A DNA stretch of 37,769 nt, from positions 1 through 37,769 of the forward strand of contig CAIXGY010000016.1 of the NCBI GenBank assembly GCA_903919035.1, given 5' to 3'. Below, in pieces: positions 13,200 to 32,767 of this stretch; position 1 is the first letter of the stretch, and each line of letters begins with the position of its first letter. A program made the translations under genes and the position numbers. The stretch comes from an uncultured Planctomycetaceae bacterium (GTDB lineage Bacteria; Planctomycetota; Planctomycetia; Pirellulales; UBA1268). The notes beneath the pieces are model-generated. The model was given only the letters and a program-made list of their open reading frames with translations, made no database searches and was not told where the DNA came from.

Positions 13200-13679
13200 T
13201 CAGTCGTCGACCGTCCACTGCCGCAGGGCCTCGTAGGCCACGATCGCGGCGCAGTTGGAGAGGTTGAGGCTGCGAACCTGCGGCCGCGAGGGAATCGTCA
13301 GCAGGTGGTCAGGGTGGGCGGCGGTGAGCGCGGCGGGCAGCCCCGCCGACTCCTTGCCGAACACCAGCACGTCCCCCCGCGCGTACGAGACGCCGGTGTA
13401 GGGTCGGGTCGCCCGCGCGGAAAACAGCCAGCGGGTGCCCGCGCCGCTCGCGTCGAGGCGGGTCACGAGGTGATCCCAGGAATCGGCGGCCTCCCACTCA
13501 AGTTCGTCCCAGTAGTCGAGCCCGGCGCGGCGGAGGTAGTAGTCGTCGAGCGAGAAGCCCAGCGGCCGGACGAGCCACATCTTCGCCCCGAGGGCCACGC
13601 AGGTGCGGCCCACGTTGCCGGCGTTCGGCGGGATTTCCGGCTCGTGGAGGACGATATGAAGGATGGGGTCGTAACGCAT
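13200..13679 (-). CDS. trmL: tRNA (cytidine(34)-2'-O)-methyltransferase, TrmL/SpoU family
   Basis: [72 protein letters not shown]. Confidence 0.9.
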
Positions 13680-13725
13680 GGATTCGCCGGCCGGCGGCCG
13701 TCTGCTATCGTTGGAGCACAGTGTG

Positions 13726-14880
13726 ATGACGGGAGGCCACGTGGTCGAGTTGAAGCGGAATCGGACGCGGGCGGTGAAGATCGGCAGCATCACGATCGGT
13801 GCCGGCCACCCCATCGCCGCCCAGAGCATGACGGCCACCCACACGCAGGACGTGGCCGCCACCGTGGAGCAGGCCAACGCCCTGCACGCGGCCGGCGCGG
13901 GCGTGGTGCGGATCGCGGTGGACTCCAAGAAGGACGCGGCCGCCCTCCCGGCGATCCGGGCTGGCACGCCGGCCAACCTGGCGATCGACCTCCAGGAGAA
14001 CTACCGTCTGGCCGTCGACGTGGCGCCGCACGTCGACAAACTCCGCTACAACCCCGGCCACCTCTACCACCACGAGCCGACGAAGCCCTGGCAGGAGAAG
14101 GTGAAGTTCATCGCCGGCGTCGCGGCCGACCACGACTGTGCCCTGCGGGTGGGCGTGAACTGCGGCAGCGTGGATCCCGCGAAGAAGGAGCAGTTTGACC
14201 CCGAGGATTCGATCGGCCCGATGCTCGCCAGCGCGCTCGAGCATTGCGAGTTGCTCGACTCCATCGGCTTCACCCGCTACGCGGTGTCGCTCAAGGACTC
14301 GGATCCCCGCAAGGTGATCGACGTCAACCGGCGGTTCGCCGCGGAGCGGCCCGACGTGCCCCTGCATCTGGGCGTGACCGAGGCGGGGATGCCACCCGAC
14401 GGCATCATCAAGACGCGGATCGCCTTCGAGCAGCTGATCTCGCGGGGCATCGGCGACACCGTCCGGGTGTCGCTCACGGTGCCGAATGTCGACAAGCCGC
14501 AGGAGATCGCCGCCGCCAACCAGATCCTCGCCGACATCGCCGCCGGCCGGGTGCGGAGCGTGGTGGACTACGGCCTCGCCTCGCTCAACATCATTTCCTG
14601 CCCGAGCTGCTCGCGGGTCGAGAACGAGGCCTTCATCGACCTGGCCAAGCAGGTGAAGGCGATGACCGACTATGCCCGTGACCACGCGATCACGATCGCC
14701 GTGATGGGCTGCCGGGTGAACGGCCCCGGCGAGACCGACGACGCCGATCTCGGCCTGTGGTGCGGGCCGACGCACGTGAATCTGAAGAAGAAGAGCGTCG
14801 AGCTCGGGGCCTTCCCCTACGACGAGATTCTGCCGCGGCTCCGGGCCGAGCTCGACACGCTGATCGCGGAGCGGGCATGA
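13726..14880 (+). CDS. ispG: 4-hydroxy-3-methylbut-2-en-1-yl diphosphate synthase
   Basis: GcpE signatures: [43 protein letters not shown]. Confidence 0.95.
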
Positions 14881-16322
14881 AAGGTCTGCCGATCGTCTCA
14901 GCCGACGAGCCGTGCGGGGTCGGGACGTCGGCCCTGCCGGTGATCCAGCCCGTCGATCCGGCCACCTGCCGGGGCACGTTCTCGATGGTCAGCCTCGGCT
15001 GCCCCAAGAACCTCGTCGACAGCGAGCGGATGCTCGGGCTGCTGCGGGAGGACGGCTGGCAGCTCGTGGCCGAGCCGCACGGGGCGGATCTCGTGATCGT
15101 CAACACCTGTGCCTTCATCGACGCCTCGCGGCAGGAGTCGTATGGGGCCATCCGCGAGATGCTCGACCTCAAGGCGGCCGGCGCCACCCGCGGCGTGATC
15201 GTGGCAGGCTGCCTCGCCGAACGGCAGAAGGAGTCGCTCCTCGACGAGCTGCCGGGGGTGGACGCGGTGATCGGCGTCTTTTCCCGGGACGAAGTGGCCC
15301 GCGCGGCCGAGCGGCTGCTCGGCGGCCTCGGGGATCAGCGGAGCGTGTTCCGCCCGGCGCCGGCGCGGGCCCTCGACGATTCCGGTCGCATGCGGGTCAC
15401 GCCGCGGCACATGGCCTACCTCAAGATCTCGGAGGGCTGCGACCGGACCTGCACGTTCTGCGCGATCCCGCGGATGCGCGGCAAGCATGCCACGAAGCCG
15501 ATCGAGGAGGTGGTGCGCGAGGCCCGCGAACTCGCCGCGGACGGCGTCAAGGAGCTCGTGATCGTCGCGCAGGACACGACCTACTACGGGCTCGATCTCT
15601 ATGGCGAGACACGGCTCGTGGAATTGCTCGGCGAGCTGGAGCGGGTGGACGGGATCGAGTGGATCCGGCTCATGTACCTCTATCCGATCCACTTCACCGA
15701 CCGCCTCGTCGCCACGATCGCCGGGAGCGGCAAGATCCTGCCCTACCTCGACATGCCCTTGCAGCACGCCAGCGATCCGGTGCTCAAGCGGATGCAGCGG
15801 CGGGTCAACCGGGCCGCCACCGAGGAGTTGCTGGGAAAGCTCCGCGAGCGGATCCCCGACCTCGTGCTCCGCACCACGTTCATCACGGGGTTTCCGGGGG
15901 AGACCGACCCGCAGTTCGCGGAGTTGGTCGACTTCGTCCGCCGGTGGCGGTTCGAGCGGGTGGGAGTGTTTACCTATTCGCTGGAGCCCGACACGCCCGC
16001 GGCGCGGCTCGACGGCCATCTGCCCGAGGACGTGAAGACGGCCCGACGCGACGAACTCATGCGGGTGCAGCAGGGCATCGCCCACGACCACGCCCGGCGA
16101 CAGGTGGGCCGCACGCTCGACGTGATCGTCGATCGGCGCAGCGACGAGCGGCCCGACGTGTGGATCGCCCGCACCAAGGCCGACGCGCCCGACATCGACT
16201 GCGTGGCCTGGATCACCGCGCCGGGCAGCGAGCATGGCCGGCCGCTCACGGGCCGCATCCTGCCGGTCGAGGTGGTCGCCGCCTCGGGCTATGACCTGGC
16301 CGCGGTGTCCGCCGAGGCCTGA
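14877..16322 (+). CDS. rimO: Ribosomal protein S12 methylthiotransferase
   Basis: [50 protein letters not shown]-terminal TRAM-like region; ATGA overlap with ispG. Confidence 0.95.
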
Positions 16323-16325
16323 CGC

Positions 16326-16919
16326 ATGGCCACCGATCGCGTGCTCACCGTGCCCAACGTACTGTCGCTCGCGCGGCTGGGCCTGGCGGTCGTGTTCTTC
16401 GCGGCGGTCGAGCGGCCGGAGCCGGTCGCCGCGTTCTGGCTGTTTCTCGTGGCGGCGTCCACCGACTGGGTCGATGGCTGGTGGGCGCGGCGGTTCGGCC
16501 AGGTGAGCCGGCTGGGACGGATCTTCGATCCGCTCGTCGACAAGGTGCTCGTGTGCGGCGCCTGGGTGCTGCTCGCCGCCCGCGACGGCGGGTCGGCGAT
16601 CCTGCCCTGGATGGCCCTGGTGGTCGTCGTCCGCGAACTCGTGGTGACGGCCGTCCGCGCGGAGATGGAACGGATCGGCCGCGACTTCTCCGCCGCGCTC
16701 GTCGGAAAATTGAAGATGGTGTTGCAGTGTGCGGCCGTGGCCCTCGAGTTGGCGGCGCGTGCCTGGCCGGGCTGGCAGCCTGGCGGCGTCGATCCGCGGC
16801 TGGCCGCGACGTGGACGGCTTGGGCGGCCGTCGTGGCCACGGTCTGGTCGGGCGTCGAGTATCTCGTCGCCGCACGGGTGCTCGTCGCCCGCGGCGCGGG
16901 CTCGCCGCCCGGGGAATGA
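16326..16919 (+). CDS. pgsA: CDP-alcohol phosphatidyltransferase (PgsA-like)
   Basis: TVPNVLSLARLGLAVVFF; STDWVDGWWARRFGQVSRLGRIFDPLVDK. Confidence 0.85.
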   Translation: MATDRVLTVPNVLSLARLGLAVVFFAAVERPEPVAAFWLFLVAASTDWVDGWWARRFGQVSRLGRIFDPLVDKVLVCGAWVLLAARDGGSAILPWMALVVVVRELVVTAVRAEMERIGRDFSAALVGKLKMVLQCAAVALELAARAWPGWQPGGVDPRLAATWTAWAAVVATVWSGVEYLVAARVLVARGAGSPPGE

Positions 16920-17779
16920 GCGGGGCGGCAGACATGCAGACGGGTGAAGCGGTCGGCGTCGGCGGGGTGGATCCGACACTGACCGTGCCGCTGATCGCTG
17001 CGATGCTCGTGGCCTGGACGGCGAGTATCGTCGTGGCCGCGCGGCTCGCGGTCCGGCTGCGGCGCGGACTCCCGATGGTCGATCCACGGCCGCATCCGCC
17101 GGTGACCTGGGGCGGAGCCGACGTGGCGGCAGTCGCGGCGATGTTCATCGGTCTGCTCATGGCGGCGGGCTGGTGGGTGCGGCCGGAATCCGCCTTGCGT
17201 CTCCAACTTGCCGCGGACGTGATCACGAAACTTGGCGCCACGCTCGCGGGCCTGGCTGTGCTGCGAATGGCCGGCGCTTCGTGGGCCGCCCTCGGCTTCG
17301 GTGGAGAACGTGTCGTTGACGATCTGCGGATCGCCGTCGGCGGGCTGGCGCTCGTGCTGGCGCCGCTGCTCGGCATCGCGGCCATCCTCGACCGGATCGT
17401 GCCGTATCGCCATCCGGTCGTGACGTTTCTCCAGACCGAGCGGGATCCGGTCGCCATCGGGCTCGTCGTGCTTGCGGCCGTTTGCGTGGCGCCGGTGGCC
17501 GAGGAGTTTTTCTTTCGCAGGGTGCTGCAGGGCTGGCTCGAGTGCCGCCTGCCCGAGGCCGACGGCGCCGTCGCGATCGGGCTCTCCGCGGCGGCCTTCG
17601 CCGCGGCCCACGCCGGGCATGGCCTGGCGGCCGGGCCGCTGTTCCTGCTCGGGGTGGTGCTCGGGGTCGTGGCCAGACGCACCGGGTCACTCGGGGCCTG
17701 CATCGGACTGCACGCGCTGTTCAATGCCGTGAGCGTGGGGCTGATCCTGGCCTCACCGCCTGGCCAGGGCGGGGCATGA
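16916..17779 (+). CDS. CPBP family intramembrane metalloprotease
   Basis: VAPVAEEFFFRRVLQGWLE, AAFAAAHAGHG, LGACIGLHALFNAV. Confidence 0.85.
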   Translation: MSGAADMQTGEAVGVGGVDPTLTVPLIAAMLVAWTASIVVAARLAVRLRRGLPMVDPRPHPPVTWGGADVAAVAAMFIGLLMAAGWWVRPESALRLQLAADVITKLGATLAGLAVLRMAGASWAALGFGGERVVDDLRIAVGGLALVLAPLLGIAAILDRIVPYRHPVVTFLQTERDPVAIGLVVLAAVCVAPVAEEFFFRRVLQGWLECRLPEADGAVAIGLSAAAFAAAHAGHGLAAGPLFLLGVVLGVVARRTGSLGACIGLHALFNAVSVGLILASPPGQGGA

Positions 17780-17852
17780 GGGCTCGGGGCCCGGAATCGA
17801 TCTTGGCCGCGATGCGGCGGACGCGGCACAATCCCGGGCTCACCCATCTCGG

Positions 17853-18803
17853 ATGGTCGTGTCTCCCGTGTCGCGTCGCCCTCTCACCACCCGCCTTGCC
17901 GACGTGGCCGCCTACGTGGCGGTGCGGGTGGTGATCTGCGTGCTTCAGGCCCTGCCGCGCGGCACGTGCGAACGGTGGGCCCGGCGACTCTCGGGCCTGT
18001 TCGCCGATCGGCTGGCCATCCGTCGGGACGTGGTGCTCGGCAATCTCGGGATCGCATTTCCCGACGCCACCCTCGAGACGCGGCAGGCACTCTCTCGGGG
18101 CATGTGGGAGCACCTGCTGCTGATGGTCGTGGAGATCGCCCATGCCGACCGCGTGATCCGCACGACGACGTGGCGACGCTATCTGCGGATTCAGGGGATG
18201 GAGGAGGCCGTTCGGACACTCTGGCTCGAGCGGCCGAAGGTCATCCTCTCGGGTCACTACGGCAACTTCGAGATCGCGGCCTACCTGTTCGGATTGTTCG
18301 GCTTCCGCACCTTCTCGGTGGCCCGCGAACTCGACAATCCCCTGCTCGACAACTTCGTGACCCGGTTTCGCGAGTCGCGGGGCCAGGTGATCCTGCCGAA
18401 GATCGGCAGCGCGCCCGACGTGGCGCAGGTGCTGGATGCGAACGGCACGATCGGCCTGCTCGGCGACCAGGCGGCCGGCCCCCGGGATTGCCGGGTCGAG
18501 TTTTTCGGCCGGCCGGTGACGGTGCACAAGGCGATCGGCCTGTTCGCGCTCTCGGCCTGCGCACCGGTAATCGTCTGTTCGGCGACCCGACGCGGCGGGC
18601 TGTTCGCCTACGACCTGCGGGTCGAAGGCACCATCGATCCCGCCGCCGGTGGACCCGAGGTTGAGAATCCCCGTGCCCTCTCGCAGTGGTACACGGGACT
18701 CCTCGAACGGGCGATTCGACGGGAGCCGAGGCAATACTGGTGGCTCCATCGCCGGTGGCGGGAGGGGCGTCGACCGGCTACAGTGGGCCGCTCCGCCGCA
18801 TGA
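17853..18803 (+). CDS. LpxL/HtrB-like lysophospholipid acyltransferase
   Basis: VVLGNLGIAFPD; KVILSGHYGNFEIAAYLFGLFGF; LGDQAAG; YWWLHRRWREGRR. Confidence 0.85.
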   Translation: MVVSPVSRRPLTTRLADVAAYVAVRVVICVLQALPRGTCERWARRLSGLFADRLAIRRDVVLGNLGIAFPDATLETRQALSRGMWEHLLLMVVEIAHADRVIRTTTWRRYLRIQGMEEAVRTLWLERPKVILSGHYGNFEIAAYLFGLFGFRTFSVARELDNPLLDNFVTRFRESRGQVILPKIGSAPDVAQVLDANGTIGLLGDQAAGPRDCRVEFFGRPVTVHKAIGLFALSACAPVIVCSATRRGGLFAYDLRVEGTIDPAAGGPEVENPRALSQWYTGLLERAIRREPRQYWWLHRRWREGRRPATVGRSAA

Positions 18804-18861
18804 CCGGCACGAGGCGTCGTGCCGGCCCCGCGCTGCCGCCCGCCTCCGCCGCCAGGTCGCC

Positions 18862-19191
18862 ATGTCTGAGTGGATTCCGATCGCCACGGAGGCGGAGTGT
18901 CCCCCGGGCACCTGCATCGAGCGGGTGGCCGAGGATCGCGTGGTGGCGATCGCCAACGTCGCCGGCCGCTATCACGCTCTCGACGGCCTCTGCCCGCACC
19001 AGGGCGGGCCGCTCGGGCGGGGCACGCTCCAGGGCACGACGCTCACCTGCCCGTGGCACGGCTGGCAGTTCGACGCGACCACCGGCCGCCACTGCCTGTC
19101 GGCGACGGTGCGGCAAGCCATCCACGAGATCCGCACGGACGCCGGCATGATTCTCGTGCGCTTCGGTGAGGTCGCCGGAACCGCGACATGA
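18862..19191 (+). CDS. Rieske (2Fe-2S) ferredoxin-type protein
   Basis: LCPHQGGPLGRG ... CPWHGWQFD. Confidence 0.9.
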   Translation: MSEWIPIATEAECPPGTCIERVAEDRVVAIANVAGRYHALDGLCPHQGGPLGRGTLQGTTLTCPWHGWQFDATTGRHCLSATVRQAIHEIRTDAGMILVRFGEVAGTAT

Positions 19192-20153
19192 TCACGTTTC
19201 GCTGCTTCCGCAACGACGATCCCCCGCGACTCGCCGGCATCTGGCGAACCGCGAATCTCGGGCCGGGGGCGATGCAGCCGATGACCGTGACGCATCTCGA
19301 GGCCGGCGTCTTCTCGAAGCCCTACTTCGACCGCGAGGGGCTCATGCTGGCCTTCGACGACGATCAGGCCGTGGGCTTCGCCCACGCGGCCTTCGCGCCG
19401 AACACCGACCGCGACGCGCTGGACACGTCGACCGGCACCACGCTGCTCGTCGTGGTCGAGCCCCACGAGCACGAGGCCGACATCGCCGCTGGCCTGATCT
19501 CCCGCTGCGAGGACTACCTCCGACGCCGCGGCGCGCGGACGATCCTCGGCGGCGGCTCGGCCGAGATGGCGGGTTTCTACCTCGGGCTCTATGGCGGCGC
19601 GCTCATTCCGGGCATCCTCGATTCATCGGCCGCGATGCAGCGGGCCTTTCTCGCCTCGGGCTACGAGGCCGCCGACCGGATCGCCGTGCTCCGTCGGCCA
19701 CTCGCGGGATTCCGGCCCCCCGTCAACCGACTCCAACTGGCCATCCGGCGTGCGAGCGAGCTCCGGGTGATCGACGAGCCGGTCCGCCGCACGTGGTGGG
19801 AGGCTGCGACCACCACGGGAATCGCGCTGCGGCGCTATGAACTCCGCGGGCGGCAGGAGGGGCCGGAAGGGACTGGGGCCCTCCTCGGGAGCGCGTCGTT
19901 CTGGGACATGCAGCCGCTCGCGTCGGCGTGGGGAGTGCCGGCGGCCGGTCTGATGAACGTGACCATCGAGGGCCCGCGGCGCCGCCAGGGGCTGGCGAGC
20001 TACCTCGTCGCCGAGGCGTTGCATGACCTCGCCGCGGAGGGCGTGACGCTCGTGGAGACGCAGGTGTCGGAGGCCAACGCCGCGGCCACGAGCCTGTTCG
20101 GCAAGCTGGGTTTCCAGGCCGCCGACCACGGCACCGTGTTTCGCAAGCCGTAA
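19188..20153 (+). CDS. GNAT family N-acetyltransferase
   Basis: VTIEGPRRRQGLASYLVAEALHDLAAEGVTLVETQVSEANAAATSLFGKLGF. Confidence 0.85.
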   Translation: MITFRCFRNDDPPRLAGIWRTANLGPGAMQPMTVTHLEAGVFSKPYFDREGLMLAFDDDQAVGFAHAAFAPNTDRDALDTSTGTTLLVVVEPHEHEADIAAGLISRCEDYLRRRGARTILGGGSAEMAGFYLGLYGGALIPGILDSSAAMQRAFLASGYEAADRIAVLRRPLAGFRPPVNRLQLAIRRASELRVIDEPVRRTWWEAATTTGIALRRYELRGRQEGPEGTGALLGSASFWDMQPLASAWGVPAAGLMNVTIEGPRRRQGLASYLVAEALHDLAAEGVTLVETQVSEANAAATSLFGKLGFQAADHGTVFRKP

Positions 20154-20158
20154 TACGA

Positions 20159-21034
20159 TCAGGGCTGGCCCGCGGCGGCGAGCGAGGACAGGTGCGTCGT
20201 GAGCGTGGCCGCGAGGTCCGGCGGGGTGTCGGGGGCGCGCATGAGTCGCGCCGAGAGCGGCGGGGTCTTGCCGTCGCGGCGGACGTCGGCCAGGTAATCC
20301 TGCAGCAGCCGGCGACGCTCCGGCGTCGTGCACAGGAGCCAGTGCACCCAGCACCAGGCCTCGGCATAGTGATCCTGCGAAAGTTCTCCGGCGGAGGCGA
20401 GCGACTCGAGCCTCGCGAGATCGGGCCGCCACGTGCCCTCCAGCGTCCGGCCGGCGAGATGGGCGACGTGGGCCCGATGCACGCCGGCCTCGTGCCGCGG
20501 CAGTTCGAAGAACTCGGCGAGCCCCTCGTCGAGCCAGAGCGGCACGGCGGGCGCGACCGAGTGGACGTAGCCGTGGGTCGTCTCGTGCCGCAGGTCCTCG
20601 GCGACCCGGTCCTGCCAGGCGGCGAACACGGCGAGCGTGGTGTCGGTCTCGACGAAGAAGGCCCGCCGAGCCGGAAAGCCGGGGAACTGTCGCGCGGCGA
20701 AGGCGGTGTAGCGATCCGCGTCTTCGAAGAGATACAGATGCACCGGCTCGTCGGAGACCGGCAGGCCAAGCCGCTGGCTGACTTCCGCACGGAGGTCGTC
20801 GAGCTCGCGCACGAGGCGGTGCTGGCCCGCGAGTGGAAAATCCGCGTGGATGACCAGTTGCCCGACCGCGAGTTCCGTCCGGTCAGGCAGCGAGCGGTCC
20901 CTCGTCCACGAGCCGAGGCCGATGGCGGGCGCGGACGAGCGGGCGAGCGCGTCGAGGCCGACCACATGGGCGCATCCGGTGGCCACCAGCACTCCGAGTG
21001 CGCAGACGATCGATGAAACGACGGCGGGCCGCAT
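20159..21034 (-). CDS. DUF1570-like lipoprotein with HExxH-type motif
   Basis: Lipobox-like LVATGC; DLRHETTHGYVHSVAPAVPLWLDEGLAEFFE. Confidence 0.75.
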   Translation of the reverse strand: MRPAVVSSIVCALGVLVATGCAHVVGLDALARSSAPAIGLGSWTRDRSLPDRTELAVGQLVIHADFPLAGQHRLVRELDDLRAEVSQRLGLPVSDEPVHLYLFEDADRYTAFAARQFPGFPARRAFFVETDTTLAVFAAWQDRVAEDLRHETTHGYVHSVAPAVPLWLDEGLAEFFELPRHEAGVHRAHVAHLAGRTLEGTWRPDLARLESLASAGELSQDHYAEAWCWVHWLLCTTPERRRLLQDYLADVRRDGKTPPLSARLMRAPDTPPDLAATLTTHLSSLAAAGQP

Positions 21035-22134: not shown

Positions 22135-23313
22135 ATGTCGGAATCGGGCACGCGAGCGCGGCGTGGAGTGGGACGCCGCATGCAGGTGATCGCCGTCACG
22201 GGCACCAGCGGCAAGACGACGACGACGTGGCTCGCCGCGTCGGTGTTGGCCGAGGCCGGCCTGCGAGCGGGCGTGGTGAGCGACCTGGGTTGCGTCGATG
22301 CCGATGGGACGTTCGTGGGCCACTTCGACCGTCGAAGCCCGGACGCGCTCGCCGCGCGGCTCGCGGCGTTCGCCCGCAGCGGATGCACGCACGCCGTCGT
22401 CGAGATGCCGCACACGCTCCTGGAGGCCGGCGCGGTGGGTCGCGGGACGTGCGGCACCGTCGTCGTCACCAGCGCCGTTCGCGGGCCGCGCGGCGAACGG
22501 TCCGCCCGCCGCCGCATCGAGCGGCGGATCGTCGAGGCGTTGGCGTCCGACGGCTGCCTGGTGGCTCCGCGCGACCCGCGTTTCGCCCCACTGTTTGCGG
22601 CCGCGGCCCGCCGCCGCGGCGTGACCGGCCTTGCGGTCGGCCTCGACGATTCATGCGACGTGTGGGCACAGCCCGTCGAGCGCGGCCTGCATGGCCAGGT
22701 CTTCCTCGCCGCGGCCGCCGGACAGGTCGTGCCGATGGCGGTCGACGTGCCGGTGGCGTCGTTCGCCCGCAACGCGATGTGCGCCGCCGCCGTGGGACTT
22801 CGTTGCGGCGTGCCGCTCGACGTCGCCGCGCGGGGCGTGGAGGCGTGCGGCAGTGTGGCCGGCCGCGTGGAGCGGCTGGATCGCGGGCAGGACTTCGCGG
22901 CCTTTCTCGATGCGCCGGGAAGCGGCCATGCGCTCGCGTCGACCCTCGTGAGCCTCCGGCGGCTCACGCCCGGGCGGCTCGCGGTGATCGCCGACCAGCG
23001 ATTCGTGGACGGCCTCGGAGCGATCGCGTTCGCGCGGCCCGTGCGGCAGCGTTGCGACGACGTGGTCGTCGTGCCGGCGGGCGTGCTCGATGACGAGGCC
23101 GACGAGGCGGCGCTGGCGGCCTACGCCCGCATCGACCTGCTCTTGGGGCGGCTCGGGGCCCGCGACTGCCTGCTCGTGCTCGGACACACCGATCCGGTGC
23201 CTCGGCCGCGACAGTCTGGCGGCGACGTGCCCCTGGCGACGCTCGTGGATGGCTGGCTCCGGCTGGCCCATCCGCCACGGGTCGCCGCGGCGGGTCCGCG
23301 CCGGGCGGCATGA
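22135..23313 (+). CDS. Divergent Mur-ligase-like protein
   Basis: MQVIAVTGTSGKTTTTWLAASVLAEAGLRAGVVSDLG P-loop; aggagg SD upstream; canonical MurE central and C-terminal motifs absent. Confidence 0.75.
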   Translation: MSESGTRARRGVGRRMQVIAVTGTSGKTTTTWLAASVLAEAGLRAGVVSDLGCVDADGTFVGHFDRRSPDALAARLAAFARSGCTHAVVEMPHTLLEAGAVGRGTCGTVVVTSAVRGPRGERSARRRIERRIVEALASDGCLVAPRDPRFAPLFAAAARRRGVTGLAVGLDDSCDVWAQPVERGLHGQVFLAAAAGQVVPMAVDVPVASFARNAMCAAAVGLRCGVPLDVAARGVEACGSVAGRVERLDRGQDFAAFLDAPGSGHALASTLVSLRRLTPGRLAVIADQRFVDGLGAIAFARPVRQRCDDVVVVPAGVLDDEADEAALAAYARIDLLLGRLGARDCLLVLGHTDPVPRPRQSGGDVPLATLVDGWLRLAHPPRVAAAGPRRAA

Positions 23314-23425: not shown

Positions 23426-24352
23426 ATGGCGGCGGCAGGCAAATCGGCGGCGGATCCGGCCGCCGGGGCGGACGCGACGCCCTTCGATGATCTCGGCGTG
23501 GCCGTGTCGCGGCGCGAACCGCTGTCGCACCACACCTGGCTCGGGCTGGGCGGCGAGGCTTCGTTCTTTTGCGAGCCGGTCGATGTCGAGGCGCTGCGGC
23601 GGGTAGTCAGCCGCTGCCGAGAGCGGGGCATCCCGCTGCGGGTGATCGGCGGTGGCTCCAACGTGCTGGTGCCGAAGGCAGGCTTCGCCGGCATGGTGGT
23701 GCGGCTGTCGGCGCCCGCCTTCTGCGGGATCGAGGTGCGAAAGCCGGGGCTCGTGGCCGGTGCCGGCGCGAAACTCGTGCACGTGGTCTCGGCGGCCGTT
23801 CAGGCTGGGCTCTCGGGGCTCGAGACGCTCGTGGACGTGCCGGGCACCGTCGGCGGCGCGCTCGTCGGCAACGCGGGCGGGCATGCGGGCGACATCGGCG
23901 AGCGGGTCCGCGAGGTGACCGTGATGCTGGTCGACGGCAGCGTCGAGAACCGCGACCAGTCACGGCTGGCGTTCGAGGCCCGGTGGAGCAACCTCGACGA
24001 CTGCATCGTGATCAGTTGCCGATTCGATCTCGACGAGGAGAGCCCGGCCCTGCTCACGAAGCGGATGCAGAAGCAGTGGATCGTGGGCCGCGCCGAGCAA
24101 CCCGGGGGCACGCGGGCCGTGGCGATGATGTTCAAGGATCCGCTCGGCACCACGGCCGAATCGCTCATCGTCCAGGCTGGGGCCCGCGACACGCGGGTCG
24201 GCGGCGCGTCGGTGCATGCCCCCCACGCGAATTACGTCGTGGCGGATGCCACGTGCACGAGCGACGACGTGCGGGCACTCGTGGAGCGGGTGCGGACGCG
24301 GGTTCGTGACGCCCTCGGCGTGGAACTGACCCCGCAAATCGAGGTCTGGTGA
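23426..24352 (+). CDS. MurB-like FAD-binding protein (catalytic residues substituted)
   Basis: IPLRVIGGGSNVLVPKAGFAGMVV; VPGTVGGALVGNAGGHAGDIGERV; VGGASVHAPHANYVV; AVAMMFKDP replaces GSxFKNP. Confidence 0.85.
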   Translation: MAAAGKSAADPAAGADATPFDDLGVAVSRREPLSHHTWLGLGGEASFFCEPVDVEALRRVVSRCRERGIPLRVIGGGSNVLVPKAGFAGMVVRLSAPAFCGIEVRKPGLVAGAGAKLVHVVSAAVQAGLSGLETLVDVPGTVGGALVGNAGGHAGDIGERVREVTVMLVDGSVENRDQSRLAFEARWSNLDDCIVISCRFDLDEESPALLTKRMQKQWIVGRAEQPGGTRAVAMMFKDPLGTTAESLIVQAGARDTRVGGASVHAPHANYVVADATCTSDDVRALVERVRTRVRDALGVELTPQIEVW

Positions 24353-24371: not shown

Positions 24372-25262
24372 ATGAACGCTCCCCTCCGTCGCCGGCCTCC
24401 CGTCCCCGAGCCACCGCGTGCATCGGCGGTGATGGAGTTCCTGTCTACCCGCCGCGCCGGTCTGGGCGCGATCGCGGTGATCGTGGCGGCCGGACTCGGC
24501 GGCTGGGCGTTGTGGCGTCGCCATGCCGCCGACGTGCGGGCCCATCCGGATGCGGTGCTGTTTCCGGAGCGGGTGGATGTTCGCGGCGTGGCGCCGTGGG
24601 TCCGCGGCGACCTTCGCGCCGAGGTGCTCCGCGACGCGAGCCTCGACGGCGGCCTGCCGCTCGACGACCCCGACCTCGCCGAGCGGCTGCGGCGGGCGTT
24701 CGCGAGGCATCCGTGGGTCCGCGAGGTCGCGCGGGTGGCGATCAGCCAGCCGGCAGCCGCCGTCGTGGAGGTGCGCTGCCGGCAGCCGGTGGCGATGGTG
24801 CGGGTTCAGAACGGCCTCTACGCCGTGGACGCAGACGCCGTGCTGCTCCCCAGCGACGACTTCACGCCCGAGTCGGCGGCCGCCTATCCGACGATCGCCC
24901 ACGTCGGGTCCACGCCGCTGGGGGCGGCCGGCACGCGATGGGACGACCAACTCGTGGTCGAGGGGGCGGCCGTGGCGGCGGCGATCGGCCCCGAGTGGCC
25001 GCGGTTGGGAATGCGGGATCTGCGCCCCGCGGGCACTCCCACCGGCATCCACTGGGATCTCGTGGGCGACGACGGCAGCATGATCCGCTTCGGCTCGGCG
25101 CCCGGTCGCGAACGGCCCGACGAGCCGGCCGCCGCGGCGAAGGTGGTGCGACTCCGGGACGTCGCCGGCGGCGATGCGGCCGGGTCGGTCGACCTCGCGG
25201 CACCGCCACCGGCCGAGAACACGCCGCCGATCAGCGCGGGCGATCCAGCACCAGCGTCCTGA
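24372..25262 (+). CDS. FtsQ-like single-pass protein with POTRA-like domain
   Basis: N-terminal TM; LFPERVDVRGVAPWVRGDLRAEVL...HPWVREVARVAISQPAAAVVEVRCRQPVAMVRVQNGLYAVDADAVLLP; follows the murB-like gene. Confidence 0.65.
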   Translation: MNAPLRRRPPVPEPPRASAVMEFLSTRRAGLGAIAVIVAAGLGGWALWRRHAADVRAHPDAVLFPERVDVRGVAPWVRGDLRAEVLRDASLDGGLPLDDPDLAERLRRAFARHPWVREVARVAISQPAAAVVEVRCRQPVAMVRVQNGLYAVDADAVLLPSDDFTPESAAAYPTIAHVGSTPLGAAGTRWDDQLVVEGAAVAAAIGPEWPRLGMRDLRPAGTPTGIHWDLVGDDGSMIRFGSAPGRERPDEPAAAAKVVRLRDVAGGDAAGSVDLAAPPPAENTPPISAGDPAPAS

Positions 25263-26609: not shown

Positions 26610-27542
26610 CTACCCGTCGAAGGCGTGGATGAAGCCCCGCGGCTCCAGCGGCCGCGTCGTGCCGTCTGCAGCGCGGGCCAGCAGCCCGGAGCCAGCCTGG
26701 ACCACACCGAAGATCGCCGGGGCGAGGCCCGGGGGCGGATCGGCGACGAGGGCGCGGGCGTCGGCCGGCGGCATCGCGAGCACGAGCTCGAAGTCCTCGC
26801 CGTCGGCCAGCGTGTGGTCGAGCGGGCTGCGTCGGTCGTCGGAGCGGGCGGCGAGCCGTTCCGCGTCGGGATGGATCGGCACGGCGGCGAGATCGACGAC
26901 CGCCGCGGCGCCGCTGGCGGCCATCATCCGCGACAGATCGAGCGACAGGCCGTCGCTCACGTCGATCGCCGCGTGGACGGTGTGGCGGGCGGCGATCGCC
27001 AGCGCCTCGCGGCAGCGGGGAGCCACGGCGAGGTGGCGTCCGAGAATGCTGCCGCCGCACGGGCCCGTGACGACGAGCAGATCGTCGGGCCGGGCCCCGT
27101 CGCGACGCCAGGCAACGCCCGCCGCGACGCTGCCGACCGCGGTGATGGTCACCACCAGCGGGCCGTCCCACGCGTTCGTGTCGCCGCCGGCGAGCGTCAC
27201 GCCATGGTCCGCCGCCAGTGCGGCGATGCCCTCGTGGAGGCCGCGGGCGATCGCATCGCCGCCATGCCGAGGAAGCGCCACGGCCACCACGATCGCCTCG
27301 GGCCGGGCGGCCATGGCCGCCAGGTCGCTCAAGTTGACCGCGAGCGCCTTGTGGCCCACGGCCTGCGGCGGACAGTCGGGGCCGAGCACGAAGTCGACGC
27401 CCTCCATGAGCATGTCCGTCGTGACGACGGTGCGACGGCCCGCCGGGGGTCGCAGGACGGCGGCGTCGTCACCGGGGGGCACCTCGAGCCGCACGTCGGC
27501 CGGAATCCGCCGCAGGAGCCAGTCGACGAATTCAGTTTCCAT
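26610..27542 (-). CDS. thiL: Thiamine-monophosphate kinase
   Basis: VPPGDDAAVLRPP; TTDMLMEGVDF; AAIDVSDGLSLDLSRM. Confidence 0.92.
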   Translation of the reverse strand: METEFVDWLLRRIPADVRLEVPPGDDAAVLRPPAGRRTVVTTDMLMEGVDFVLGPDCPPQAVGHKALAVNLSDLAAMAARPEAIVVAVALPRHGGDAIARGLHEGIAALAADHGVTLAGGDTNAWDGPLVVTITAVGSVAAGVAWRRDGARPDDLLVVTGPCGGSILGRHLAVAPRCREALAIAARHTVHAAIDVSDGLSLDLSRMMAASGAAAVVDLAAVPIHPDAERLAARSDDRRSPLDHTLADGEDFELVLAMPPADARALVADPPPGLAPAIFGVVQAGSGLLARAADGTTRPLEPRGFIHAFDG

Positions 27543-27608
27543 CGCGCTGCCCGCGAAGATCGGGCACCCGACCGCCCGCTGCGGGATCGACGCCCGCTGG
27601 TGGCCATC

Positions 27609-28913
27609 CTACCGCAGGACGGAGTCGGAGACGATGTGGCCGAAGAGCGTCTCGCGGCCGCGGAGCACGTAGAACTTGATCGGATTGAGGTGATCTTCGC
27701 CGGCCTTGTCGAGGATGTATGCCACGTTGTCGGGGGCGATCGTCTCCCACACGTGGAGGCCGACGAGGATGTCGCCCGCGCGGATGCCCTGCTCTGCGGC
27801 AGGCCCGCCGTCCCGCACCTCCGTCACGTCGAGCCCGCCGCGGTAGCGGGCCTGCAGCTTCTGCACCTTGGCCGCGGGCAGCGGCTGCAGTCGCACGCCG
27901 AGTTCCTGCCAGCACCGCTCCTCGATCGACATGTCGGAGCGGCGCATGGCCGCCAACGGCAGCGTCAGGCTCTCCTCGGCCCCGGCCCGCACCACCGTCA
28001 TCGAGATCGCGTCGCCGGCCTTGTGGCCGAGCAGGCCACGCTCGATGTCGAACGGCCGCGTGACCCGGACGTCACCGATCCGCGTGATCACGTCGCCGGC
28101 CCGCACGCCCACGCTCGCCGCCGGGCTCTCGCCGTGCACCGCCTCAACGACGGCGCCGGTGGCGTCGCCCCGTCGGGCCACGATGCCGTGCCAGGTGTGA
28201 TCCACCCGCTCGACGGACATGAGCCGGGTGACCACGTCCAGCACGTGGTCGATGGGCAAGGCGAAGCCGATGCCCTGCGCCCCGGCCCGCACGGCCACGT
28301 TGATGCCGATCACCTCGCCGTCGACGTTGAGCAGCGGGCCGCCGGAGTTACCGGGATTGATGCTGGCGTCGGTCTGGATCAGGTCGTCGTAGCGCTGCGT
28401 GCGGCTCACCTCGACGTCGCGGTGGAGCGCGGACACGATCCCCCGGGTCACGGTGTGCTCATACCCGTAGGCGTTGCCGAGCGCGAGGACGGTCTCTCCG
28501 ATCATGAGGTCGCTCGACGTGCCGAGCGTGATCACCGGCAGCGGCTCGGCGGTCGGAATCTTGATCACGGCCAGATCCGTGCGCGGGTCGTGCGACACGA
28601 GCGCAGCCGAGGTCGTGCGGCCGTCGGCGAGCGTGACCTCGATCCGGCGGACTCCCTCCACGACGTGGAAGTTGGTGACGACGTAGCCGCGCGGATCGAC
28701 GATGCAGCCGGTGCCCATGCCGTTGACCCGCCGTGCCTCGGCGCCGGCCTCGTCGTCGCCCACGACCTTCTGCCCGTGGATGTTGACCACGGCATCGCGC
28801 TGCGACTCGACCGCGAGAACGATGGCCGAGCGCCGCATCTCGGTGGCCGAGGCGGGAGCGGTCGCGGCGGCGCAGACGGCCACGAGCGACACGACAACCG
28901 ACGAAATCCGCAT
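27609..28913 (-). CDS. HtrA/Do-like trypsin-type serine protease with PDZ domains
   Basis: Signal peptide; TNFHVVEG / RTDLAVIKI / INPGNSGGPLLNVDG triad; PDZ-like ASVGVRAGDVITRIGDVRV and EQGIRAGDILVGL. Confidence 0.93.
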   Translation of the reverse strand: MRISSVVVSLVAVCAAATAPASATEMRRSAIVLAVESQRDAVVNIHGQKVVGDDEAGAEARRVNGMGTGCIVDPRGYVVTNFHVVEGVRRIEVTLADGRTTSAALVSHDPRTDLAVIKIPTAEPLPVITLGTSSDLMIGETVLALGNAYGYEHTVTRGIVSALHRDVEVSRTQRYDDLIQTDASINPGNSGGPLLNVDGEVIGINVAVRAGAQGIGFALPIDHVLDVVTRLMSVERVDHTWHGIVARRGDATGAVVEAVHGESPAASVGVRAGDVITRIGDVRVTRPFDIERGLLGHKAGDAISMTVVRAGAEESLTLPLAAMRRSDMSIEERCWQELGVRLQPLPAAKVQKLQARYRGGLDVTEVRDGGPAAEQGIRAGDILVGLHVWETIAPDNVAYILDKAGEDHLNPIKFYVLRGRETLFGHIVSDSVLR

Positions 28914-29110
28914 GGCGGACTGGCTCCCCCGGCGATGACCGGACCGACGGCGCTCCGCGGCCCTGGCTCGGGAGGGAAATCGGCCACCACCCCCGGGCCG
29001 GCCGCACGAGCGGCCTTTGCGTCGGCACATCCTGCCCAAACTCAAGCCCGCAGCCTGCGGAATCGGTGCGTGTGCCCCCGTCGCCGCGGGTTCGCCGGCT
29101 TCCGCTGGAA

Positions 29111-30337
29111 TCAGCCGGGGCCGGGCCGATCGGACCGTGCCTCCCGGGGCTCGGATCCCACGAGCGCGGGCAGCACCTGAAGCCCGAGAAACAAGACCAG
29201 GACCACGAGCACGAGCACCGGCCAGGCGTTGGCGATGGCCGTGCCGAACTCCCAGCCGATTTCCCGCGAGATTCCGGCCACGAGCGTGGCCACGACGACG
29301 AGAAGCAGCGCGAGGAGCACGAGACCGCATCCCAGCGACGCCATCGTGCCCTTGAAGGTGCCGAGTTCCGAAAACTCCTCGTGGTGCAGGTCGATCGCGC
29401 GGCCCCGCGCCAGGCTGCGGGGCACCGTTTCGGCGATCTCCAGGGCGCGGGCGGCGTCGGGCCAGACCGCCGGCGGCACGGCCGACGAGTCCGGCCGCGG
29501 GCGTTCCCCGAGCACGCATTCCAGGTGGTCGAGCAACGCGGCGCCGCGGTCGAACGGCGTAGGCTCCGCGAGAGGTGGCGTCGTCGTCCACGGCACCGGT
29601 TCCTCTGGAGCAAAGACCTCGATCGGCCCACGGGCGTGATGCAGCGTGATCCGCAATCCCTCGGGCCGACCGGCCGCCACCTGCCAGCGGGCCGGCACCT
29701 GGGCGGGGCCGGTGAGCCCGACGGCGAGCGTGGGCCATGCCGAGTCGGGGTCGCCGGCGCCGAGCGTGGCCACGCGGCCCGGATCACCGACCAGCACGCG
29801 GATGATGTCCGCGTCACGGGAGAGCGCCGCGAGCACGGCCTGCTTTGAGCGATCTGCGAGCGTCCGCTCCAGTCGGATGGATTCGAGCGGCCCGAGCGGT
29901 CCGGAGCCGGCGGCGGCGGCCTCGACCAGGCCCTTCAGGGCGGCGATCGTCGGATGCAGGCGATCGGGCAGGGCGGGCACGAGCCGCGCACCGGAGTCGC
30001 GGGCGATCATGTCGAGCTCGAACGCCCAGACCATCGAGAACTCGAGCGGCTGCGCGAGCACGAGCGGGCGACCCGACTGCACGAGCGTGCGGACGGCCTC
30101 GGCCCGGGCCGCATCCCAGCCGTCCGAGCCGACGAGCACGGCATCGCACACGGCGTCGTCCAGGAAGGACGTCCACGCCACGCGACCGGCCGACGGCACG
30201 GTCGTCGCATGGGCGGCGAGGATCGTCCATCCGCGGTCGCGGGCGGCAGCGGCGATCCGGGCAATCAGGGGGTCGTCGCCGAGCAGGCCGAGCGTTTTCG
30301 TGGAGCGGGTGGACATCCGGACCATTGTTCCCGCCAT
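29111..30337 (-). CDS. Hypothetical protein with two C-terminal TM segments
   Basis: KTLGLLGDDPLIARIAAAARDRGWTILAAHA N-terminus; C-terminal LGCGLVLLALLLVVVATLVAGI and AWPVLVLVVLVLFLGLQVLPALVG; exact start uncertain. Confidence 0.65.
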   Translation of the reverse strand: MAGTMVRMSTRSTKTLGLLGDDPLIARIAAAARDRGWTILAAHATTVPSAGRVAWTSFLDDAVCDAVLVGSDGWDAARAEAVRTLVQSGRPLVLAQPLEFSMVWAFELDMIARDSGARLVPALPDRLHPTIAALKGLVEAAAAGSGPLGPLESIRLERTLADRSKQAVLAALSRDADIIRVLVGDPGRVATLGAGDPDSAWPTLAVGLTGPAQVPARWQVAAGRPEGLRITLHHARGPIEVFAPEEPVPWTTTPPLAEPTPFDRGAALLDHLECVLGERPRPDSSAVPPAVWPDAARALEIAETVPRSLARGRAIDLHHEEFSELGTFKGTMASLGCGLVLLALLLVVVATLVAGISREIGWEFGTAIANAWPVLVLVVLVLFLGLQVLPALVGSEPREARSDRPGPG

Positions 30338-30404
30338 CGCCCCGGCCCGCCAGTGCGGGCGGGGGCTCCTGTGCTGCGGCTGGCCGGGACGCTATAGAAG
30401 AGTC

Positions 30405-31667
30405 ATGAATGCCACGGGCGGGCCTAGGGCCGAGGTGATCGCGATCGGCGACGAGCTGACCACCGGCGCGCGGCTCGACACCAACAGCCAATGGCTGTCG
30501 GCCGAACTCGCCGTGCTCGGGATCCCGGTGGCGTTTCACACCACCGCGCCCGACACGCTCGATTCCGGGCTCGAGGCCCTGCGGATTGCCGCGGGCCGGG
30601 CCGACATCGTCGTGGCCACCGGCGGCCTCGGGCCGACGGCCGACGATCTCACCCGCGACGTCCTGGCCGGGCTGGCGGGCGCGCCGCTCGACCTCGATGC
30701 GGCGTCGCTCGCGGCCGTCGAGAGCCGTTTCGCGCGGCGAAACGCGCCGATGCCGGAGTCGAACCGGCGGCAGGCGCTGTTTCCGCGGGGCAGCCGGATC
30801 ATTCCGAATCCCGACGGCACCGCGCCGGGCATCGATCTCGACGTCACAGGGCCCAGCGGCCGGCGCTGCCGCGTGTTCGCCCTCCCGGGCGTGCCCGGGG
30901 AGATGAAGACGATGTGGCGCGAGACCGTGGCGCCGGCGCTCGCCGGGCTCGTGCCTGGTGGGGCGACGATCGTCCAGCGGCGGATCAAGTGTTTCGGCGC
31001 AGGTGAGAGCGCGATCGAGGCGCTGCTCCCCGACCTGATTCGCCGCGGTCGCGAGCCGTGCGTGGGCATCACGGCGCACGAGGCGACGATCACGCTGCGG
31101 ATCACGGCCCGGGGCCGCGACGAGGCCGCCTGTCGGGCGGCGATCGCCGCCGACGAGGCGACGATCCGCGGCTGCCTCGGCCCGCTGGTCTACGGCGTCG
31201 AGGACGACGAGGTGGAGGACGCGGCGGTGCGGGCCGTGTCGGCGGCCGGGCTGACCCTCGGTTCCGCGGAGATCGGCACCGAGGGACGCGTGGCCGCCCT
31301 GCTCGCGCGGGCACGGGGCCGGCTGCTCGACGCCGGTGTCGCCGTGCGTGGTGGGCTCGTGCTCTCTGCCGCGGGCTCGACCGCCGGGCCGGATGCGGCC
31401 CAATCGCTCGCGGACCGCGCCCGCCGCGAGTGTGTGACCACCCTGGGCCTCGGCGTGGGCGGGCCGCGGCCTGGAGCTGAAGGTCGCACGGTGATCGACG
31501 TGGCCCTGTCGGGTCTGACAGACCGTGGAGGGCGGCCGGCCGTGGTCCGTCTCGAGCACGTGCTCGGCGGCGGTCCTGATCTGGCGGGTTCGCGGGCCGC
31601 GAAGTCGGCGATCGATCTTGTCCGCAGGTCGCTCGCGGAGTTGGGCGGAGACGGAGCCGCGACATGA
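30405..31667 (+). CDS. cinA: CinA family protein (MoaB/Mog-like domain intact, C-terminal domain diverged)
   Basis: EVIAIGDELTTGARLDTNSQWLSAEL; VVATGGLGPTADDLTRD; ALPGVPGEMKTMW. Confidence 0.88.
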   Translation: MNATGGPRAEVIAIGDELTTGARLDTNSQWLSAELAVLGIPVAFHTTAPDTLDSGLEALRIAAGRADIVVATGGLGPTADDLTRDVLAGLAGAPLDLDAASLAAVESRFARRNAPMPESNRRQALFPRGSRIIPNPDGTAPGIDLDVTGPSGRRCRVFALPGVPGEMKTMWRETVAPALAGLVPGGATIVQRRIKCFGAGESAIEALLPDLIRRGREPCVGITAHEATITLRITARGRDEAACRAAIAADEATIRGCLGPLVYGVEDDEVEDAAVRAVSAAGLTLGSAEIGTEGRVAALLARARGRLLDAGVAVRGGLVLSAAGSTAGPDAAQSLADRARRECVTTLGLGVGGPRPGAEGRTVIDVALSGLTDRGGRPAVVRLEHVLGGGPDLAGSRAAKSAIDLVRRSLAELGGDGAAT

Positions 31668-32767
31668 GCGGTCGGAACTCGGATCGCGCGACGTCGTCGG
31701 CCAATTGGCGGACACTGCTTTTGTTCGCGGGCTTCGTCGCGCTCGTGACCCTGATCGCCTGGCCGTCGTTCATCGGCCGCCTGCACTACGCGCGGACGCG
31801 GGCCGAGTTGCGGGCCATCCGCGATGCCGCGTCGGTGGCCGAGTTGAGTTCGGTCGGCAAGCTGTTCACGACCCTGGCCCGGATCATCGGGCCCACCGTG
31901 GTCAACGTCACATCGCGAAGGCCCGTCTCGGTCGCCGAGGAGAAGGCAGTGGTCGAAGGCATCGACGAGTCGGCGGGCTCCGGCCTCGTGATCGGGGGGG
32001 ACGGTGTGATCGTGACCAACTATCACGTCGTTGCCCGCGCCGAGCAGACCATGGTGACGCTCGCCGACGGACGGCGGCTGCCCGCCGAACTGGTCGGCGC
32101 CGATCCGGCGACCGACCTTGCGGTGCTGCGGGTCGACGCCATGGACCTGCCGACCGCCACCTGGGGCGACAGCGACGGTATGGAGGTCGGCGAGATGGTC
32201 TGGGCGCTCGGCAACCCCTTCCGGCTCGATCGCACACTCACCTACGGGATCGTGAGCGCCGTCGGGCGGCGGGGAGTGCTGGAGAGCCCCTACCAGGAAT
32301 TCCTCCAGACCGATGCGGCGATCAACCCGGGCAACTCGGGCGGCCCGCTCGTCGATGTGCACGGCCGCGTGATCGGCATCACGACGGCCATGGTGGGCCG
32401 CGACTACACCGGGATCGGTTTCGCGATCCCGAGCAACACCGTCCGTCAGGTGTGCGATGCGATCCTCGCCCAACGCGAGCCGGATCGCGGGTATTTGGGT
32501 GTGTCCCTCCTGGCGACCTGGGCCGCCGGTGGCGGAGCCGGGGCGGAGGTCACGGCCGTGGAGGCCGGCTCGCCCGCGGCCCAGGCGGGTGTCGCGGTGG
32601 GCGACGTGATCGTCGGATTCGCCGGTCAGGACATCGACGGCCCGGCAGAGTTTTTGCTTCACGAGACCCGCGCGGCCGTGGGCGAGACCCGACCGCTCGA
32701 GGTGCGCCGAGACGGGGAGCGGATCACGCTCGACGTCCTCGTGGGCAGGCGGCCGCGTGATCGGTAG
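31664..32767 (+). CDS. Trypsin-like serine protease with PDZ domain (HtrA/DegS-like), membrane-anchored
   Basis: N-terminal TM; TNYHVVARA / ATDLAVLRV / INPGNSGGPLVDVHG; AQAGVAVGDVIVGFAGQDI. Confidence 0.93.
   Translation: MSGRNSDRATSSANWRTLLLFAGFVALVTLIAWPSFIGRLHYARTRAELRAIRDAASVAELSSVGKLFTTLARIIGPTVVNVTSRRPVSVAEEKAVVEGIDESAGSGLVIGGDGVIVTNYHVVARAEQTMVTLADGRRLPAELVGADPATDLAVLRVDAMDLPTATWGDSDGMEVGEMVWALGNPFRLDRTLTYGIVSAVGRRGVLESPYQEFLQTDAAINPGNSGGPLVDVHGRVIGITTAMVGRDYTGIGFAIPSNTVRQVCDAILAQREPDRGYLGVSLLATWAAGGGAGAEVTAVEAGSPAAQAGVAVGDVIVGFAGQDIDGPAEFLLHETRAAVGETRPLEVRRDGERITLDVLVGRRPRDR

Follow-up and report, generated by a model that had tools for sequence, protein, structure and literature searches.

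MurB enzymes of type IIb, the Thermus caldophilus type with a Cys as proton donor, are the closest described counterparts of the protein analyzed here. The roles of Ser and Glu in MurB catalysis have been described, and in the P. aeruginosa enzyme the equivalent Ser and Glu are also in contact with the nicotinamide of NADPH, and Tyr and Asn with its adenosine part (PMC3689657). In the E. coli MurB S229A mutant (1uxy) the general acid is missing at the position equivalent to that altered in our protein. Among planctomycetes, the Pirellulales, Isosphaerales and Gemmatales have lost murA, C, D, F, G and J together with ftsW and have kept murB throughout (PMC12283558), and in Planctopirus limnophila murB is conserved yet dispensable, the loss of murB and ftsQ being tolerated (PMC10632474). 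Unlike the MurA-negative species, P. limnophila has the full pathway. MurNAc, DAP and lysozyme-sensitive structures have been reported in Gemmata obscuriglobus and Rhodopirellula baltica (PMC4432640), and the reported MurNAc is hard to square with the gene losses. MurB itself is currently annotated and counted as evidence of planctomycete peptidoglycan synthesis.

Here we describe a MurB-fold protein, referred to as pseudo-MurB, that is probably (with a probability of about 0.68) a retained and re-tasked FAD-fold protein descended from an ordinary MurB. It shares with the type IIb enzymes the whole fold, the FAD motifs and the position before ftsQ, but it carries Met for Cys, Gln for Glu, Ala or Ser for Tyr and Asp for Asn, and has no MurA to supply its substrate. 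Compared with the E. coli S229A mutant, its state is natural and fixed and includes additional active-site changes. Retention of murB without its pathway is already published (PMC12283558; PMC10632474); those studies record the same phenomenon as gene presence, while the present analysis shows loss of catalytic residues and a murB-ftsQ remnant. The literature that we searched makes no mention of either, nor of a tie between MurB residue loss and MurA loss, and earlier mention elsewhere is possible.

A MurB-fold protein with a substituted active site

The window, that is, the whole 37,769-nucleotide stretch of DNA that was analyzed, contains the following features of pseudo-MurB.

23426..24352, + strand: MurB-fold flavoprotein with a substituted active site (pseudo-MurB), 308 residues; from translation, Pfam/NCBIfam and an AlphaFold2 model
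23648..23671, + strand: FAD-binding motif GGGSNVLV, residues 75–82; from translation, with G75, G77 and N79 conserved in MurA-positive and MurA-negative MurBs
23837..23890, + strand: FAD-binding motif VPGTVGGALVGNAGGHAG, residues 138–155; from translation, with P139, G140, T141, G143, G144 and N149 conserved in all groups
23978..23989, + strand: ARWS, residues 185–188, replacing YRxS, with Tyr185 changed to Ala; from alignment
24116..24142, + strand: AVAMMFKDP, residues 231–239, replacing SAGCIFKNP; from alignments
24125-24127, + strand: Met234 at the proton-donor position; from alignments with solved and planctomycete MurBs
24326..24337, + strand: LTPQ, residues 301–304, replacing LExE; from alignments
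24335-24337, + strand: Gln304 replacing the catalytic Glu; from alignments

By fold and Pfam domains the protein is a member of the MurB homologous family. It exceeds the cut-offs of both MurB_C (67.2 bits; cut-off 27) and FAD_binding_4 (71.1 bits; cut-off 26.4), and the best PDB matches of its AlphaFold2 model (pLDDT 90.8) are all MurB, with TM scores of 0.78–0.88 across type II MurBs and the highest, 0.88, for 4pyt. The two NCBIfam murB equivalog models match it strongly yet below their cut-offs (219.8 against 259 and 132.5 against 144.5); three MurBs from MurA-positive planctomycetes pass, with 312–325 and 214–220. Two hallmarks of a functional MurB, the Ser or Cys general acid in GS/GCxFKNP and the Glu in LExE, are lacking. 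Met234 lies opposite the Ser of CGSVFK and Gln304 opposite the Glu of LETE when the protein is aligned with solved type II MurBs; in the alignment with planctomycete MurBs they lie opposite Cys and Glu, respectively. Residue 238 is Asp where canonical MurB has Asn.

An earlier sequence-only reading of this DNA had described the FAD signatures GGGSNVLV and VPGTVGGALVGNAGGHAG as well kept, with ARWS in place of the YRxS motif and LTPQ in place of the C-terminal Glu motif. The translation and alignments bear this out, the FAD signatures being conserved class-wide and Gln304 aligning with the catalytic Glu. Its recognition of AVAMMFKDP as the replaced catalytic motif also holds, but its placement at 24119-24142 does not, as the motif begins one codon earlier. 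Of the checks it proposed, a profile search of the whole genome for a second, canonical murB found none, pseudo-MurB being the sole MurB_C match, and an alignment across planctomycetes revealed that the active-site substitutions recur in the aligned members of the host's family, most of which have SRWS rather than ARWS. Because they are fixed across the family, the substitutions are neither chance nor sequencing error, and an assembly error as their source is ruled out.

Peptidoglycan genes are missing from the host lineage

The host genome (3.46 Mb, ~97% complete) belongs to a family of ~60 genomes, and we surveyed 100 genomes; contig names mark relatives as Pirellulales metagenome genomes. 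In this survey MurA, MraY, the penicillin-binding transpeptidase and FtsW/RodA (SEDS) were absent from the host genome and from all family members; MurG was not found in the host genome and appeared family-wide only at spurious levels. The only EPSP-family enzyme of the host is AroA (411 bits, cut-off 287), its MraY-like match is WecA-type and YkuD gives a single weak match. Few other Mur-type ligases are encoded, one of them a cyanophycin synthetase. The host lineage has lost nearly all peptidoglycan-making genes. Elsewhere in the order, 15 genomes from sister families carry MurA, MraY, MurG, the transpeptidase and SEDS, and one further genome (G085) has the transpeptidase and SEDS, with MurA not found.

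A MurG-like gene (115-227 bits) is kept in six MurA-negative genomes of the order (G061, G064, G065, G082, G096 and G097), and in three of these it lies near a Mur-type ligase. MurA-like matches adjoining murB in G062 and G064 are likely AroA rather than MurA, because each has an AroA-like start (PPGSKS.TNRAL) and is the only EPSP-family match of its genome.

Loss of MurB catalytic residues is associated with the absence of MurA across the class

MurB is present in 118/118 sampled Planctomycetia genomes, and MurA reaches or approaches its cut-off in ~33 of the 118 (~30%). We compared residues in 149 aligned MurBs, covering 35 MurA-positive and 111 MurA-negative genomes. At least one MurB with both catalytic residues occurs in all 35 MurA-positive genomes compared to 7 of the 111 MurA-negative genomes (Fisher p 4e-27). 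Since 38 of the 111 MurA-negative genomes come from the host's own family, the association test was redone per family, and both catalytic residues are kept in 13/13 MurA-positive compared to 4/18 MurA-negative families (p 2e-5). The seven MurA-negative genomes with both residues indicate that substitution is not required for persistence without MurA. A MurB tree built with the motif columns removed shows at least 10 changes of MurA status, 4 of them on well-supported branches, and 9 changes of catalytic status; tree-based independent pairs run 2:0 in the expected direction and another 2 are undecided, numbers that fall short of significance.

The residue at the proton-donor position varies among MurA-negative lineages (M, R, Y, I, Q, L, K, P, V or W). 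The MurA-positive MurBs alone conserve Tyr185, Arg186, Gly233, Cys234, Asn238, His267 and Glu304, with Arg186 and His267 still kept in most members of the host's family. The FAD-site residues are conserved in every MurB group, Ser78 of GGGSN less so beyond the host's family. Outside Planctomycetia, all 25 MurBs sampled (Phycisphaerae, Omnitrophota, Methylomirabilota and others) keep C/S and E. In the complete genome of Singulisphaera acidiphila DSM 18658, which lacks MurA, the MurB has Cys/Gln and ftsQ follows closely downstream. Collectively, these comparisons suggest that the residues for enolpyruvyl reduction disappeared from MurB on repeated occasions after the pathway had been lost, yet the protein stayed, mostly with ftsQ.

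The sole degenerate MurB in a MurA-positive genome is found in G102, where a second, canonical MurB adjoins MurA. Both G102 and G112 (loci L195/L196 and L199/L200) have two MurBs each, the class-wide copy and a divergent canonical copy beside MurA, which suggests that the second MurB and MurA form a separate pair, possibly acquired. Three MurBs (L061, L162 and L178) have lost one or both catalytic residues and still pass the NCBIfam MurB cut-offs, and routine annotation of such proteins as working enzymes hides the pattern. Should the residues for the reaction be gone from most MurBs of the class, finding the protein in such a species would reveal nothing about a wall; the reported MurNAc would then stand in sharp conflict with the gene losses, and whether these bacteria build a real wall would become a testable question.

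Fixation, selection and possible functions of pseudo-MurB

Judged by its residues, pseudo-MurB is very probably no working enolpyruvyl reductase, and its conserved FAD site suggests that it still binds FAD. We envisage an ancestor with an ordinary type IIb (Cys) MurB within a division-and-cell-wall (dcw) cluster. Loss of MurA and the remaining peptidoglycan precursor synthesis would have left MurB without a substrate, after which Cys234, Glu304, Tyr185 and Asn238, residues for binding or protonation of UDP-GlcNAc-enolpyruvate, would have been replaced and the reductase function lost with them. By analogy with P. aeruginosa MurB, where the equivalent residues also contact NADPH, both half-reactions are expected to be impaired. 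Purifying selection would meanwhile have held the MurB fold and the FAD-site residues, leaving a FAD-bound pseudoenzyme or a re-tasked oxidoreductase in place of UDP-N-acetylenolpyruvoylglucosamine reductase.

The catalytic loop of the host's family has been re-fixed to a family-specific sequence, R230/V232/A233/M234/M235/D238/E245, at 92-100%. This and the kept FAD-site residues would also suit a genuine FAD enzyme that has taken on a different substrate and has nothing to do with division, such as one that oxidizes or reduces a sugar or a lactate-like compound; many D-lactate dehydrogenases and sugar oxidases belong to the superfamily of the fold. We regard such an enzyme as possible but doubtful, as the donor residue differs by lineage, unlike what one shared new chemistry would leave, and residues whose counterparts in MurB also bind NADPH have not been kept.

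At two loop positions the host's family has gained residues that vary little or not at all, Asp238 and Glu245, and these may provide an alternative acid. A check of the family alignment for the shifted proton donors that the sequence-only reading had raised as a counter-possibility found no Ser, Cys or Tyr that is both new and invariant within the catalytic loop. Together with the reports of MurNAc and DAP from Rhodopirellula and Gemmata (PMC4432640), Asp238 and Glu245 could be taken to mean that UDP-MurNAc is still made via other proton donors, in a pathway of unrecognisably divergent enzymes. This is improbable, given that the family lacks MurA, MraY, MurG, SEDS, PBPs and most of the Mur ligases, that the donor-position residues differ among MurA-negative lineages and that the losses in these orders were found independently (PMC12283558).

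The pseudo-MurB gene is under purifying selection. In the host's family its median dN/dS is 0.22, compared to 0.39 for the adjoining MurE-derived ligase (NG86, which is approximate for GC-rich DNA), none of the family copies has an internal stop and the gene is present in 96/99 relatives. A relic that has been decaying since the pathway was lost and still awaits deletion would agree with the many losses of catalytic residues and with the clear erosion of the neighboring ligase in the host genome. The dN/dS, the lack of internal stops, the presence of MurB throughout the class and a loop that is newly fixed, not drifting, argue against decay and make this reading slightly less probable still. 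The least likely account of all is that the altered MurB of MurA-less planctomycetes takes part in making muramic acid, or a wall sugar resembling it, by a route that bypasses MurA; if true, this would explain how Rhodopirellula and Gemmata could contain the reported MurNAc while lacking the genes. The repurposed FAD protein put forward in the sequence-only reading thus remains the best interpretation, on the strength of the sole murB, the family-wide fixation, the absent pathway, the purifying selection and the kept FAD-site residues.

An FtsQ-type protein is encoded directly downstream

The gene that follows murB lies 19 bp past its stop codon.

24372..25262, + strand: FtsQ-like protein with an N-terminal membrane helix and an FtsQ-type fold; from an AlphaFold2 model and PDB fold matches

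By its predicted fold, a membrane helix followed by an FtsQ-type POTRA and beta domain, this neighbor is FtsQ. The model has a pLDDT of 92.6, and every one of its eight top PDB hits is an FtsQ (probability 1.00, with modest TM scores of 0.34-0.50). The FtsQ HMM match is weak, POTRA_1 was found in 5/35 relatives and a sequence search of solved structures with the FtsQ alignment gave no useful match.

The gene directly follows murB in the examined members of the host's family too, and among MurA-negative murB loci ftsQ is the next gene on the same strand in 55/62, representing 16/18 families; the genes upstream of murB vary between these families. Several MurA-positive clusters have a ~1 kb gap between murB and ftsQ, space for one gene, which is probably ddl. 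As the murB-ftsQ neighborhood is ancestral in dcw clusters, the linkage was perhaps inherited and not functional; it supports a functional bond without proving it.

For the re-tasked pseudo-MurB, the likeliest setting of a new role would be the envelope or division apparatus, with FtsQ encoded directly downstream. The leading suggestion, offered tentatively, is that it acts with FtsQ in division or in the envelope, and a physical partnership of the two proteins is conjectured with equal caution; the short N-terminal FtsQ segment ahead of the membrane helix could contact a cytosolic partner. The widely kept MurB-FtsQ pair offers a lead into division without FtsZ, here also without FtsW/RodA or PBPs.

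Remains of the dcw cluster

Upstream of murB lies a second remnant of the former cluster.

22180..23313, + strand (open frame from 21757; start uncertain): MurE-derived ligase remnant; aligns with dcw murE
22201-22218, + strand: P-loop GTSGKT of the ligase remnant; from sequence

The remnant aligns with the murE that opens the dcw cluster of MurA-positive relatives, which rules out its identification as MurC. Its P-loop is kept and the substrate motifs DNPR, DYAHTPDA and GKGHE are lost. In the host copy the N-terminal domain and the His/Lys motif, both kept by most relatives, have gone as well; this copy is more eroded than theirs and perhaps on its way to loss. In full-pathway relatives murE lies ~7 kb upstream of murB within the dcw cluster; in the host's family the intervening dcw genes are gone and murE'-murB'-ftsQ' remain. 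The cell-wall cluster in which the sequence-only reading had placed pseudo-MurB is therefore historical, with these three genes left today, and the pairing that it proposed with a degenerate Mur ligase is confined to the host's family plus a small number of others; across the class, the retained partner is ftsQ.

Open frames at 20192, 21074, 25174 and 14912 were considered as partners and are likely shadow frames opposite others in high-GC DNA. Family-conserved genes upstream of murB (13678-20153) encode a CPBP protease, an LpxL-like acyltransferase, a Rieske-like protein and a GNAT protein, and those downstream (26625-32767) include HtrA/CinA-like genes.
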